A DNA stretch of 64,000 nucleotides from Cognatiluteimonas profundi (GTDB lineage Bacteria > Pseudomonadota > Gammaproteobacteria > Xanthomonadales > Xanthomonadaceae), in the NCBI RefSeq assembly GCF_009792795.1, contig NZ_VKHQ01000009.1, forward strand, positions 377 through 64,376. The letters are read 5' to 3'. Position numbers and translations under genes: made by a program. Positions 13,166 to 52,541 of this stretch are shown here, one piece after another (position 1 is the first letter of the stretch; each line of letters starts with the position of its first letter). The notes below the pieces were generated by a model. The model was not told the DNA's origin, did no database searches, and was given only the letters and a program-made list of their open reading frames with translations.

Positions 13166-13232
13166 GGGCTCGCGGCTGAAGCCGCTCCCACAAGTCCCTG
13201 CTGAAGATCGCGACTCACGTCGCTCGCACAGG
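13166..13232. repeat. REP-type repeats, two copies
   Basis: Two elements in reverse orientation compared with the first array: one of GGCTGAAGCC type (13166-13195) and one of GACTCACGTC type (13207-13232). They close the right border of the restriction island. Confidence 0.75.
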
Positions 13233-13274
13233 GGTCGGTCCAGCGTCAGCGCGAGACATCCAGAACGACGTGCC

Positions 13275-13967
13275 ATGACAAAGCCGATCACCCTCACGAT
13301 CGATGGCGGACAAACCGTCTCCGCCCTATTGCTGACACCCCCCAACCCCCACGCCTGCTACATCCTCGCCCACGGTGCAGGCACCGGCATGACGCATCCC
13401 TTCATGACCGCCGTCGCCACCGGCTTGGCTTCGCGTGGCATCGCTACGCTGCGTTACCAGTTCCCCTACATGGAGCGCGGTTCGCGTCGACCCGATACGC
13501 CACGCGTCGCGCACGCCACCGTGCGTGCGGCCGTTGAGGAAGCTGGGCGTCGGTTGCCCGGGTTGCCGCTGCTGGCCGGTGGCAAATCCTTCGGCGGTCG
13601 CATGACGTCGCAGGCGCAGGCGGAATCGCCGTTGCCGGGCGTGCAGGGCCTGGTGTTCTTTGGGTTTCCTTTGCATGCGGCTGGCAAGCCGTCGGACGAG
13701 CGTGCTGCGCATCTGTCGGATGTGGGGGTGCCGATGTTGTTTTTGCAGGGGATGCGGGACGCGCTGGCGGATACGGGGTTGCTGAAGTCAGTGGTGAAGC
13801 GGCTTGGGAAGCTGGCGACGCTGCATTTGGTTCCGGATGCGGATCACTCGTTCCATGTGCCTGCACGGTCCGGGCGCACGGATGCGGAGGTGATGGGGGA
13901 GATGCTGGATGTTGTGGCGCGGTGGGGTGGTCGTTTCGTCGGTTGGGGAAAGAGCTCGCGGCTGTAA
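13275..13967 (+). CDS. Alpha/beta hydrolase of the KANL3/Tex30-like group
   Basis: 230 aa from the ATG at 13275. The frame is open further upstream, but that part translates REP sequence. An oxyanion-type motif LAHGAGTGMTHPF is at 32-43, and the nucleophile elbow GGKSFGG places S105. D162 (in LQGMRDALAD) and H191 (in DADHSFH) complete a plausible triad. The arrangement matches small cytosolic serine hydrolases related to dienelactone hydrolases; the substrate is unknown. The last codons (GKSSRL, stop TAA) are encoded by the first part of a REP element, so the C-terminus has been set by a repeat insertion. Confidence 0.88.
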   Translation: MTKPITLTIDGGQTVSALLLTPPNPHACYILAHGAGTGMTHPFMTAVATGLASRGIATLRYQFPYMERGSRRPDTPRVAHATVRAAVEEAGRRLPGLPLLAGGKSFGGRMTSQAQAESPLPGVQGLVFFGFPLHAAGKPSDERAAHLSDVGVPMLFLQGMRDALADTGLLKSVVKRLGKLATLHLVPDADHSFHVPARSGRTDAEVMGEMLDVVARWGGRFVGWGKSSRL

Positions 13968-14460
13968 GCCGCTCCTACGAAGGGCTCGGAGTTCGTTCGT
14001 TGGTGTGGTTGTTATCGCGACTGACGTCGCTCCCACAAAGACCTGGTTGGTGGCGGGAGATGCCGGTGCTACAGGATGGGCGAAGAGCTCGCGGCTATAA
14101 GCCGCTCCTACGAAGGGTTGGGGGATTGTCGCTGGGTTGCTGTCGCGACTTCCGTCGCTGCGCGCCGCCTCAGCGCTTGGCAGCCATGAATGTTCGGCGC
14201 GCCGTCGCGCGCGCTGAATCGGTTGCTGTGGTGATGCGAGTCTTACGGTCGCGGCTTACGCCGCTCCTACGAAGATCCAGGGCTCGCGGCTGACGCCGCT
14301 TCTACGGGCGACGCGGGTGGCGTCCCTACTTCCGTCGCTCCCACAAGGGCCGAGTGATTCGGCATTGCGCAGAGCTCGCGGCTGAAGCCGCTCCCACAGG
14401 GGTGGTCAATCCGCAATGAGCGAATGTGGTCGCGGCTGAAGGCGCTCCGCGCCGCCTCGG
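13952..14460. repeat. REP-dense intergenic region, about nine copies
   Basis: Copies, mostly in reverse orientation, lie near 13952, 14014, 14085, 14141, 14247, 14281, 14329, 14373 and 14429. GGCTGTAAGCC-type and GACTGACGTC-type elements alternate. Two copies of the composite 57-bp repeat are interspersed. The region between the hydrolase stop (13967) and 14528 contains no supported gene. Confidence 0.85.
14156..14214 (-). repeat. Composite 57-bp repeat, copy 2
   Basis: Reverse orientation: CGCTGCGCGCCGCC at the left, CGCGCCGTCGCGCGC at the right, with CCATGAATG in the core. A REP half (TCGCGACTTCCGTCGC) is fused to its left end. Confidence 0.6.
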
Positions 14461-46033: not shown

Positions 46034-46108
46034 TGTGGGGGCGACGTCAGTCGCGATCGGGGTGCGGCGGGTGGGCGGTATCCATCGCGACTGACGTCGC
46101 GCCCACAG
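46034..46108. repeat. Inverted REP pair over the 3' end of the Rieske gene
   Basis: Two GACGTCAGTC-type elements in inverted orientation (about 46034-46059 and 46083-46107) match over 22 nt with one mismatch and can form a long hairpin. The stop of the Rieske gene (46047) lies inside the left arm, so its last ~20 codons are REP-derived. Confidence 0.8.
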
Positions 46109-49406: not shown

Positions 49407-49994
49407 TCATCGCAGGCTAGTGCTGGCTGCCGGTGGGTGCAAGTCAGGGAGCGATCCGGGAACGACCAGCCTGCGGCGGACATCGAGCAGGCCGCGATCG
49501 ACCAGCCATTTCCAGGCAGATTCGGCATCCGTGCCCACGTAGGCGCGCGCGCTCCCGAGCCGGAAGGTGTAGCCCCACGCATCCATGTCCGCCAGGACGC
49601 GATCGGCACCGACACCGGGCAGGGCATCGCCGAGCAGGGACTGCAGCACGCAGACCGCGTCTTCCTCGGCGATGGAATCGGTGGCGTCGGTATGCACGAC
49701 GGCGCGTCGAGCGGGGTCCAGCACGATCAGGTGCGAGGCTTCGTGCAACAGCGAATGCACCGGTGTGTCGCTGCGCGCGTGGACCGTCGCGCCGATGATC
49801 CCGGCTTCGGGTTCGCCCCAGTAGCTGCCCGGGATCGGCGCGCCGTCAGCGACCAGTTGCAGCCGCAGGCCGTAGTGCGTCAGCAGGGAGGCGACATCGT
49901 CGAAGGCGATGTCGCGCAGCAACAGCACGGAGCCGTTTGTGGAAGCGGCTTCAGCCGCGAGCTTTTCGTCGATCATGGAAGAGCTCGCGGCCAC
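49407..49994 (-). CDS. HExxH-containing protein of unknown function
   Basis: 195 aa if started at 49994; starts at ATG 49976 or GTG 49928 are also possible. Core motif LLHEASHLIVLD gives H84-E85-x2-H88, a zinc-protease-like pattern, with a later acidic stretch DATDSIAEEDAV that could supply a third ligand. The first ~20 residues (DEKLAAEAASTN) are translated from a REP element, so the true N-terminus may be at VLLLRDIAF. Conserved cytosolic metal-site protein of unknown role. Confidence 0.75.
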   Translation of the reverse strand: MAASSSMIDEKLAAEAASTNGSVLLLRDIAFDDVASLLTHYGLRLQLVADGAPIPGSYWGEPEAGIIGATVHARSDTPVHSLLHEASHLIVLDPARRAVVHTDATDSIAEEDAVCVLQSLLGDALPGVGADRVLADMDAWGYTFRLGSARAYVGTDAESAWKWLVDRGLLDVRRRLVVPGSLPDLHPPAASTSLR

Positions 49995-50016: not shown

Positions 50017-50277
50017 TCAGGCCGCGGAGGCGCGGTCGGGCAGCGACACCGAGATATCCAGCATGTCGTGGTCGCCTTCCTTGACCAGGTCGACCTTGAC
50101 CGCGTCGACGTCGACGTTGACGTACTTGCGGATCACTTCCAGCAATTCCCGGCGCAGCAGGGGCAGGTAATCGGGTCCGCCGAACGCGCTGCGTTCCTGC
50201 GCGATGATGATGCGCAGCCGGTCCTTCGCGATGTTGGCGGTGTTCTTCTTGACCTTGAGGAAATCGAACAGGCCCAT
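50017..50277 (-). CDS. minE: Cell-division topological specificity factor MinE
   Basis: 86 aa. N-terminal [20 protein letters not shown] is the membrane-targeting/MinD-binding part, followed by [12 protein letters not shown] and the dimerisation strands [13 protein letters not shown]. It drives MinCD oscillation. Gap to minD is 2 nt. Confidence 0.98.
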
Positions 50278-50279
50278 GC

Positions 50280-51089
50280 TCAGCCCCCGAAGAGCTTGCT
50301 GAAGAAGCCCTTCTTCTCGACCTCGGTGAACCGCATCGGCCTTGTTTCGCCCATCAGCCGGGCGACCGCGTCGTCGTAGGCCTGGCCCGCGGGCGATTCC
50401 ATGTCCAGGATCACCGGCTCGCCCTTGTTGGAGGCGTTCAACACGTCGCCGGATTCGGGGATCACGCCGATGGTCTTGAGGCCAAGGACTTCCTCGACGT
50501 CGGTGATCGACAGCATTTCGCCGCCTTCGACGCGTGTGGGGCTGTAGCGCGTCAGCAGCAGGTATTCCTTGACCCGCTCGCCGTTCTCGGCGCGGCGGGT
50601 CTTGCTCGCCAGCAGCCCGAGGATGCGGTCGGAGTCGCGCACCGACGACACTTCGGGATTGACCACGACGACGGCCTGGTCGGCGAAATACATCGCCAGG
50701 AACGCGCCTTTCTCGATGCCAGCGGGCGAATCGCAGACGATGTATTCGAAACCGTCGGCGGCGAGGTCATCGAGCACCTTCTGCACGCCTTCCTTGGTCA
50801 GCGCGTCCTTGTCGCGCGTCTGCGAGGCGGCCAGCACGAACAGGTTGTCGAAGCGCTTGTCCTTGATCAGCGATTGCCGAAGCGTCGCTTCCCCGTGGAT
50901 CACGTTGACGAAGTCGTACACCACGCGGCGCTCGCAACCCATGATCAGGTCCAGGTTGCGCAGTCCGACGTCGAAGTCGATCACGCAGACCTTCTTGCCG
51001 TGCCGCGCCAGGCCACATGCCAGGCTTGCGCTGGTGGTGGTCTTTCCGACGCCGCCCTTGCCCGAGGTGACAACGATTATTTCGGCCAA
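50280..51089 (-). CDS. minD: Septum-site-determining ATPase MinD
   Basis: 269 aa. Deviant Walker [12 protein letters not shown] at 8-18, [14 protein letters not shown], and a C-terminal amphipathic membrane helix ([10 protein letters not shown]). The start codon is TTG (51087-51089) with AAGGAG 7 nt upstream, unusual for a housekeeping gene but well placed. Binds MinC and the membrane. Confidence 0.98.
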
Positions 51090-51118
51090 AACAGTTCTCC
51101 TTGGTGGGGCTGTCGCGC

Positions 51119-51922
51119 TCAGTCGAGCGCGGCGATGTTCAGTTGGTCTTTGTCGAGCCAGATCTGGACTGCCTTGCCGCGCAGTTCCATGGGGATGTCT
51201 TCCAGCACCTTGTAGTGCCCGGCGACCGCGACCAGTTCGGCGTGGAATTCGCGACAGAAGATGCGCGCCTTGCCGTTGCCCTGCGCGCCAGCCAGCGCGC
51301 GTCCGCGCAGTGCGCCATAGATGTGGATCGAGCCATCCGCGATGACCTCGGCGCCGGCGCCGACGGAGGTGACGACGGTGAGGTCGCGGTTTTCGGCGTA
51401 GACCTGCTGGCCCGAGCGCACCGGAGCGGTCTGGACCAGTCCGGGTTCGCCGCCAGCCGGCTTCGCGGGCGCAGTCGACGCTTTTGTGGGAGCGGCTTCC
51501 GCCGCGAGCTCTTTGGGCATCGGCTTCGCGGCGGAAGCCGCTCCCACGGGAGCCTCGCTTCCCATCGGCTCGTACTGCGCGCGGAATTTCGCCAGCAGCG
51601 GCAAGCCCAGCTGCACCGCGAGTTGTTCGTTGTCGCTGCTGCCGTAGGCAAGGGCGACCGGCAGCACGCCGGCATCGCGCAATGCATCGAGCAGCGCGCG
51701 CGCGATCGCGACATCGGGCGTGCCGGGAAGCCCGCCGAAATCGACGACCACGGCGGCGCGGGCAAACAGCTTGGGCGCGCGGGCGACGCGATCGCGCATC
51801 TCCGCGCCAAGCTTGCCGACATCCAGCGTGCGCACGCGCAGGTTGGCGATGCCGACCTGGCCGATCTTGAGTTCGCCGGCAGGCTCGTAGTCGACGACGC
51901 AGGCTGTGGGAGTCGACGCCAC
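51119..51922 (-). CDS. minC: Septum-site-determining protein MinC with REP-encoded linker
   Basis: 267 aa from a GTG at 51922, 1 nt after the GNAT stop. The N-terminal FtsZ-inhibitory domain (about 5-115) and C-terminal beta-helix domain (about 160-265, RSGQQVYAENRDLTVV, ADGSIHIYGALRGRALAGA) are normal. The interdomain linker contains an in-frame pair of inverted REP elements (51486-51547), encoding VGAASAAKP and ELAAEAAPT; the linker is otherwise known to be tolerant and flexible. FtsZ inhibitor of the Min system. Confidence 0.96.
   Translation of the reverse strand: MASTPTACVVDYEPAGELKIGQVGIANLRVRTLDVGKLGAEMRDRVARAPKLFARAAVVVDFGGLPGTPDVAIARALLDALRDAGVLPVALAYGSSDNEQLAVQLGLPLLAKFRAQYEPMGSEAPVGAASAAKPMPKELAAEAAPTKASTAPAKPAGGEPGLVQTAPVRSGQQVYAENRDLTVVTSVGAGAEVIADGSIHIYGALRGRALAGAQGNGKARIFCREFHAELVAVAGHYKVLEDIPMELRGKAVQIWLDKDQLNIAALD
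51486..51547. repeat. Perfect 22-bp inverted REP pair inside minC
   Basis: Arms at 51486-51507 (GTGGGAGCGGCTTCCGCCGC...) and 51526-51547 are exact reverse complements over 22 bp with an 18-nt loop, so the DNA or RNA can form a strong hairpin. It lies in the part of minC encoding the interdomain linker and keeps the reading frame. Confidence 0.93.
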
Positions 51923-51923
51923 G

Positions 51924-52541
51924 TCAGGTCCCCGTGGCCCGCTGCGGTGCGACGCTGGCCAGTGCGCGTGGCTGGGTGATCCAGTCCACGTCCGGCAATT
52001 GCGCGCCATAGGTCTCGCGGATCCACGGATAGCTGCACAACTCCTTCATCAGCATCGCCGCGCGCCGCCCTGCGTCGCTGTCCCCGGGAGCGTCGCGCAT
52101 GACGCGCTGCCCGATCTCGCGGAAACCGAAGCTGCCATGGAAGAGCAGGGCGGGATCGCTGCCCGACTCCAGGAAGACTTCGCAGGCCATCTGCGGGTAG
52201 CGCAACTCGGCATAGCTCTGGACGTCGGCGTAGAACGCGCGGCCGACGCCGCCGCCGCGGCGACGGCTGGCCACCGCGATGCGATCGATGTAGAAGAAAT
52301 GCGGGTGGCGTTCGCGGAACCAGTGGAAGTTGCCGCTGTCGTGCCCGGCATCCGAGCCAAAACCGATCAGGAAGCCAGCCAGCGCGCCATCACGCTCGGC
52401 GATACGGAAATATTCTGCTTCGGAATGGAAACGGCGCAGTCGGGCCGCATCGAGCGGCAGGATCGCGGGACCGGCGGCGTTGTTGAGTGCAAGGACGGAA
52501 TCCAGCTCGTGCTCGCGCACGTCGCGGATGACTATCGACAT
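51924..52541 (-). CDS. GNAT-family acetyltransferase
   Basis: 205 aa from ATG 52541 (GGGAG upstream). Acetyl-CoA motif IDRIAVASRRRGGGVGRAFY (R-x-x-G-x-G/A type) and later FHGSFGFREIGQRV. Substrate unknown. It is the first gene of the minCDE transcript, with a 1-nt gap to minC, a placement worth checking in relatives. Confidence 0.9.
   Translation of the reverse strand: MSIVIRDVREHELDSVLALNNAAGPAILPLDAARLRRFHSEAEYFRIAERDGALAGFLIGFGSDAGHDSGNFHWFRERHPHFFYIDRIAVASRRRGGGVGRAFYADVQSYAELRYPQMACEVFLESGSDPALLFHGSFGFREIGQRVMRDAPGDSDAGRRAAMLMKELCSYPWIRETYGAQLPDVDWITQPRALASVAPQRATGT

Follow-up and report, generated by a model that had tools for sequence, protein, structure and literature searches.

REPs within genes were described by Di Nocera et al. 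(2013), whose text reports that more than half of them are dimers or groups coding for 20 to 30 residues and proposes that they form flexible linkers; the targets include RNA helicases and tRNA synthetases, and in recB the genes of X. campestris and X. oryzae carry different REPs at nearly the same position (PMC3733652). The main text of that paper does not mention minC; its gene list is Additional file 3. In titles and abstract openings, mostly of non-subscription literature, we found no report of a repeat in minC. Here we describe an inverted pair of REPs lying in frame within minC, in a stretch of 64 kb that was analysed as a whole (the window), and compare it with the minC linkers of relatives and with other genes.

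An inverted repeat in the minC reading frame

The source genome (G000) comprises 2.71 Mb in 19 contigs, and the nearest named minC relatives that we found are Lysobacter and Luteimonas. In the window, minC is followed by minD and then minE. The features of the locus are as follows.

51119–51922, reverse strand: minC, 267 aa, GTG start at 51922, stop included; Pfam MinC_N at residues 17–88 and MinC_C at 165–263
51425–51571, reverse strand: interdomain linker E118–A166, 49 aa, defined by alignment; AlphaFold2 pLDDT below 50 at residues 114–135 and 137–150
51526–51547, reverse strand: first REP arm in coding order, GTGGGAGCGGCTTCCGCCGCGA, encoding VGAASAA
51508–51525, reverse strand: 18-nt loop separating the arms, a multiple of 3
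51486–51507, reverse strand: second REP arm, exact reverse complement of the first, encoding AAEAAP(T)
50280–51089, reverse strand: minD, an open reading frame with MinD/ParA-family Pfam matches
50017–50277, reverse strand: minE, an open reading frame with a Pfam MinE match

An earlier note on this DNA had reported 22-nt arms that are exact reverse complements around an 18-nt loop, and both arms were confirmed at the coordinates above. The minC frame runs unbroken through them, and the insert corresponds to residues 126–146 (VGAASAAKPMPKELAAEAAPT, 21 residues), between MinC_N and MinC_C. The AlphaFold2 model of MinC (39-row alignment) has a mean pLDDT of 79.8, and the linker is simple in composition. 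Within the window the pair is the longest perfect inverted repeat (22 nt, with gaps of up to 60 nt allowed); the runner-up, of 17 nt at 46041–46100, is also a REP pair. When the codons of minC were shuffled (n = 30), no inverted repeat exceeded 11 nt.

The arms belong to a resident REP family

Both arms read GTGGGAG-CGGC-TTCC-GCCG-CGA, so that each unit consists of a GTRG tag and a short stem-loop palindrome. Genome-wide, 40 sites matched the arm with at most three mismatches, compared with 4 for the reversed pattern, and a degenerate REP pattern found 56 sites against 0 in the control. The exact TTCC arm occurs in minC only, and five exact TTCA copies lie elsewhere. The minC arms are thus members of the multicopy GTRG-tagged REP family of this genome, and the earlier description of a mobile-type repeat, in frame in a flexible interdomain linker, holds. 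REPs usually lie outside genes and the minC copy does not, although intragenic REPs have also been published (PMC3733652). Among the 30 of 40 matches that were inspected, the minC pair was the only clear intragenic case. One further site in an open frame (L042) is of ambiguous coding status; the other translated sites lie, by eye, upstream of a probable start codon, and L049, with three mismatches and no partner, was treated as a chance match.

Six resident REP pairs of the genome were inspected and had loops of 32, 13, 23, 23, 12 and 12 nt. In the window itself, same-orientation REP clusters and one inverted REP pair are found at 1295–2786, 13170–14397 and 46035–46106. A single REP arm also lies at 49939–49960, at the 5′ end of the open reading frame after minE, where its coding status depends on the start codon.

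The genome has three matches to PF01797 (Y1 transposase). One of them (C15:420618–420842) is flanked on both sides by GTAG REPs (C15:420292–421072) and is likely a RAYT unit. PF01797 was present in 12 of 16 genomes and gave no match in G001, G003, G005 and G006. REP copies occur without a PF01797 match in G001, G005 and G006; G005 is 76% complete.

REP pairs in the minC linkers of relatives

We compared MinC among relatives, as the earlier note had proposed. In a first set, 71 of 73 MinC_C-matching genomes were analysed (G086 and G095 were left out); in a wider set of 291 matching genomes, 30 loci and 60 more from the listed rows were read, a sample that leans to the nearest relatives. Removal of 42 duplicates (identical in the last 360 nt) from 241 loci left 199 distinct minC genes. 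The inverted-repeat score of the linker was 5–13 in 190 of the 199, which therefore had no detected strong repeat (score of 14 or more), and 14–25 in the other nine. We also looked for the insert residues in MinC of distant lineages without REP sequence and found none. All nine strong linker repeats contain REP arms, of six types.

Window minC pair: arm type GCGGC-TTCC
G005 pair: arm type GCGAC-GGAA
G004 and G007 pairs: arm type GCGGC-GGAA
G001 pair (Luteimonas lumbrici, by identical minC end): arm type GCCGCC-AY
Luteimonas gilva, G020 and L108 pairs: arm type GGGGC-TTCA
G015 pair (Lysobacter sp. CFH 32150, by identical minC end): arm type GCGAC-TTCA

The pairs at L006 and L108 are probably one insertion. 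A tenth pair (L209, in G111) is decaying and scores 13. An eleventh (L010, in G030) has decayed; within its left arm, at locus position 1414, the minC frame meets a TAA. Either minC of G030 is split by this stop or the assembly, which is fragmented and 89% complete, is wrong; such REP copies may therefore not always be benign. No pair was found in the minC linkers of G006 and G008, from the same genus as the window.

For the first ten pairs, the similarity to REPs exceeded that of 40 synonymous recodings with z of 5.0 to 7.5 (197 of the 199 linkers tested). Weaker REP-like remnants were seen at L217, L083, L143, L201 and L210 (z of 4.7, 4.6, 3.7, 2.9 and 2.5); they are not secure, because L026, L244 and L089, judged by eye not to be REPs, score z of 4.6, 3.7 and 3.4 in the same test. 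L026 was left uncounted since its two 'arms' overlap, and L013 was rejected as a pair because, with an inverted-repeat score of 13, it has no REP arms. One record, L141, is titled Bacillus subtilis and has a Stenotrophomonas-like minC; it is probably mislabelled or contaminated.

The left arms of the intact pairs start within linker residues 7–11, at offsets of 18, 21, 24 and 30 nt, the last being common to G001, G004 and G007. Linkers with a pair are 44–56 aa long (mean 49.3, 10 rows) and those without have a mean of 44.5 aa, a median of 45 and a range of 25–65 (172 rows); in the same genus, linkers without an intact pair measure 47, 49 and 53 aa (G006, G008 and G002). Because the linkers that bear a pair are barely longer, there is no simple 20-residue gain over present-day sisters. 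The insert size given previously therefore stands in part: the 21 residues encoded by the pair fit it, whereas a net lengthening by some 20 is not borne out. A clean empty site was sought among the relatives and none was found; the sister linkers differ too much.

Between G000 and G005, 7 of 110 and 7 of 101 residues of the two MinC domains differ, and 41 of 48 and 30 of 38 nucleotide differences fall at third positions (71 of 86 together). Judged from these sequences, MinC itself looks functional. REP arms lie in frame in the minC linker of several lineages, with the MinC domains conserved.

Arm type and REP copy number

The minC REP type is clearly multicopy in five genomes. For the GCCGCC type, G001 gave 36 matches, including two in minC, and the seven congeners searched gave 0. 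GCGGCGGAAGCCGC occurs 30 times in G004, 11 times in G007 and 0 times in the window genome, and GGGGCTTCAGCCCC occurs 18 times in G020 and 60 times in Luteimonas gilva; of the eight genomes of the window genus searched for the latter, seven had 0 copies and the eighth had 1. In G100, the genome of L108, there are three copies of GGGGCTTCAGCCCC, two of them 3 nt apart like its minC pair.

Some counts speak against the reading that we favour below. Only one of the three G100 copies lies outside a pair of the minC type. In G005, four copies of GCGACGGAAGTCGC were found, none of them at minC, where the arm departs from this sequence at a single base. The arm of G015 was seen in minC only, among the 99 matches listed for that genome. 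As the arms of the window genome and of G015 were seen in minC only, these two lack an exact match to a present multicopy type. In G020, a resident pair (L189) has a 3-nt loop, as does the minC pair, which suggests that a REP pair may move as a unit.

Reading frame of the arms

All nine minC pairs, which are not all independent, use the same frame, reading V-G/E-A in the left arm and ending in A-P in the right arm. Their loops measure 3–30 nt and are all multiples of 3, compared with two of the six resident pairs inspected in the window genome. Alternative frames of the arms are often open, but they give Trp, Arg, Leu or Phe; the frame used encodes V-G-A-A-x-A-A ... A-A-x-A-A-P-T.

REPs in MetG and other genes

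For MetG, 57 of the 60 genomes searched had a match, and the best 30 loci were read. The linker before the tRNA-binding domain holds an in-frame REP pair or single arm, of several types, in 8 of the 30 (L339–L368): five have pairs (G015, G020 and G028, with diverged ones in G030 and G019) and three have single arms (G001, G004 and G007). MetG of the window genome has neither a pair nor an arm. A wider gene screen accepted a site only if each side of it showed a long, coding-like open frame, which makes its counts lower limits. In G001, 30 of the 36 REP matches were read and at least 8 of these 30 lie inside five genes, one of which is MinC; in Luteimonas gilva, 30 of 60 matches were read and at least 3 lie in genes, MinC again among them. 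The other hosts are as follows.

G001, DEAD-box helicase: in-frame REP between the dimerisation and DbpA domains
G001, protein with a CAF17 C-terminal barrel, which we take to be YgfZ: in-frame REP; left arm at L289 in another frame
G001, MetG: in-frame REP before the tRNA-binding domain
G001, 2-oxoacid dehydrogenase acyltransferase: in-frame REP between the E3-binding and catalytic domains
Luteimonas gilva, MetH: in-frame REP inside the activation domain (Pfam), not in a linker
Luteimonas gilva, ABC ATPase, ABC-F-like: in-frame REP between two domains

The in-gene REP loci include L284, L289 and L302 in G001 and L313 and L338 in Luteimonas gilva. By eye, the open frames at L285 and L308 of G001 were judged spurious, and L311, L323, L326 and L337 of Luteimonas gilva lie upstream of the start and were rejected as in-gene sites. 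From the translations, read by eye, all 8 gene cases agree in the frame of the right arm; a left arm is present in 6 of them, 5 of which agree in its frame. The CAF17-type left arm and the MetH copy within a domain speak against our favoured reading. These findings, MetG included, rule out that REP insertion is unique to minC.

Distribution on the tree

We built a FastTree phylogeny from the MinC domains and MinD, excluding the linker, with 182 of the 199 rows (17 short or distant rows, L010 among them, were omitted). Presence of the ten pairs required 6 changes, and REP type as the state required 8; random placements (n = 200) required at least 8, with a mean of 9.85. Since 6 changes lie below the random range, the pair carriers are clustered, but they do not form one clade. 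With the five remnants added to the ten pairs, 10 changes were needed against a random mean of 14.65. Such change counts do not separate gain from loss. G000 and G005 are sisters with weak support (61); the codon position and the 18-nt loop length are common to their pairs and the arms are different. The loop of G000 resembles that of G001 (P = 0.006, uncorrected, the best of 28 pairs compared). In the linker of G001 there is, besides the pair at 30, a second GTGGGAG tag at offset 6.

Origin and history of the linker pairs

We consider it reasonably probable that a resident REP pair was copied into codons of the MinC linker, and that this was separately repeated across the family with each lineage's REP type. 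In this account, a head-to-head, REPIN-like pair of GTRG-tagged REPs would have entered the codons of a disordered linker and would now be translated; a RAYT-type transposase is the candidate copying agent. Copies would survive where one frame per arm and a loop that is a multiple of 3 yield small, Ala-rich residues like those of an ordinary linker, and the same event would have occurred several times in the minC linker of the family, as well as in metG and some other genes. The linker pair is presumably neutral and subject to later decay. Probably, then, resident REP pairs land in this linker again and again, last there as long as their frame is benign, and afterwards decay. Points against this account are that linkers bearing a pair are hardly longer, that no clean empty site turned up, that the G030 copy has a stop codon, and that G001, G003, G005 and G006 gave no PF01797 match. 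This differs from the one-off 'domesticated' repeat that had been proposed, which does not agree with several REP types in the same linker across lineages, some decaying and one with a stop codon, nor with similar copies in metG and other genes.

An alternative that we think rather doubtful, yet worth weighing, is a single old REP insertion in the linker of the family ancestor, with arms later replaced at the site through gene conversion with resident REPs, or made alike by replication template switching, and with loss or decay elsewhere. It would account for left arms that all start at residues 7–11 and for the alike loops of G000 and G001; the G000 and G005 pairs, at one codon with an 18-nt loop in both and arms changed symmetrically, and the 30-nt offset shared by G001, G004 and G007 also leave room for it. 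The REP-like remnants in other genera (L217, L083, L143, L201 and L210), whose left part lies at the very start of the linker in all five, and the broken G030 copy, one more decayed pair, point the same way. In coding DNA, homogenised arms and inverted spacers have been reported as products of template switching (PMC8604942), and the TTCC and GGAA loops are inversions of that kind. Against this, intact pairs start at four different offsets, which together with the second tag of G001, a sign of layering, favours repeated insertion; sisters of REP carriers (L085, L127 and L132; L120 and L125) have no clear REP signal, and the remnants are insecure given the scores of L026, L244 and L089. On balance we favour separate insertions over the overwriting of a single old one.

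Two further readings fare worse. A selected regulatory hairpin that adjusts the translation of minC, the decay of its mRNA or the minCDE ratio, a role of the kind that the earlier note had raised, would suit the perfect arms in the window and the very stable fold predicted for the mRNA segment in isolation (−69.1 kcal mol−1, z = −8.2, with 0 of 200 shuffles as stable). We regard it as very unlikely. The patchy occurrence among minC genes, the decay of some copies and the unrelated host genes of the same elements argue against a specific minC role. Furthermore, positions 51100–52000 match no Rfam family at the gathering threshold, and a hairpin in the middle of a gene would be opened by translating ribosomes. 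Chance formation of a palindrome in a GC-rich Ala/Pro linker, for which its simple composition might speak, is refuted for practical purposes by the 11-nt maximum of the codon shuffles and by the match of the arms to a multicopy family.

Recurrent copying of resident REPs into the linker can be extended to a broader proposal, which we hold tentatively, at somewhat below even confidence: interdomain linkers of core proteins of the family (MinC, MetG and others) would be standing addresses for resident REPs, re-seeded by each lineage's current REP type, with old copies melting into Ala/Pro/Glu/Lys linker. If true, a mobile repeat would be a continuing source of disordered linker sequence. The minC linker offers a well-sampled example of mobile repeats as an apparent recurring source of coding sequence for the same protein linkers, filtered by their reading frame. 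It makes two questions testable: whether selfish repeats make up part of the disordered linkers in bacteria, and whether REPs come in as pairs or are replaced at the site.

Comparison with known systems

The palindromic elements of Rickettsia are probably mostly unrelated in sequence to the minC REP. By description they are alike, being palindromes within coding genes that the protein tolerates, in a different group of organisms (Ogata 2000, as cited in PMC6649704). In nematomorph mitochondria, the subject of the citing paper, coding palindromes are also perfect inverted repeats inside genes for which template switching is discussed; there the arms encode conserved residues, and the text available explains them otherwise than by an inserted repeat family (PMC6649704). 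With the REPINs and REP-RAYT systems as outlined in PMC3116915 and PMC2817692, our locus has in common an inverted multicopy REP pair and a genome with PF01797 matches, one of them flanked by REPs; it differs in that the minC pair sits inside a gene, and the role of a RAYT is that of a candidate. The closest likeness is to the intragenic GTAG-type REPs, in-frame singles and dimers inside genes, as set out in the main text of PMC3733652; here one linker was followed over 199 genes, REP types were set against copy number and the frame was compared. In-frame intragenic REPs are already known, and the minC case adds one more of that kind. What goes furthest beyond the known is that the same linkers are repeatedly occupied by locally common REP types.
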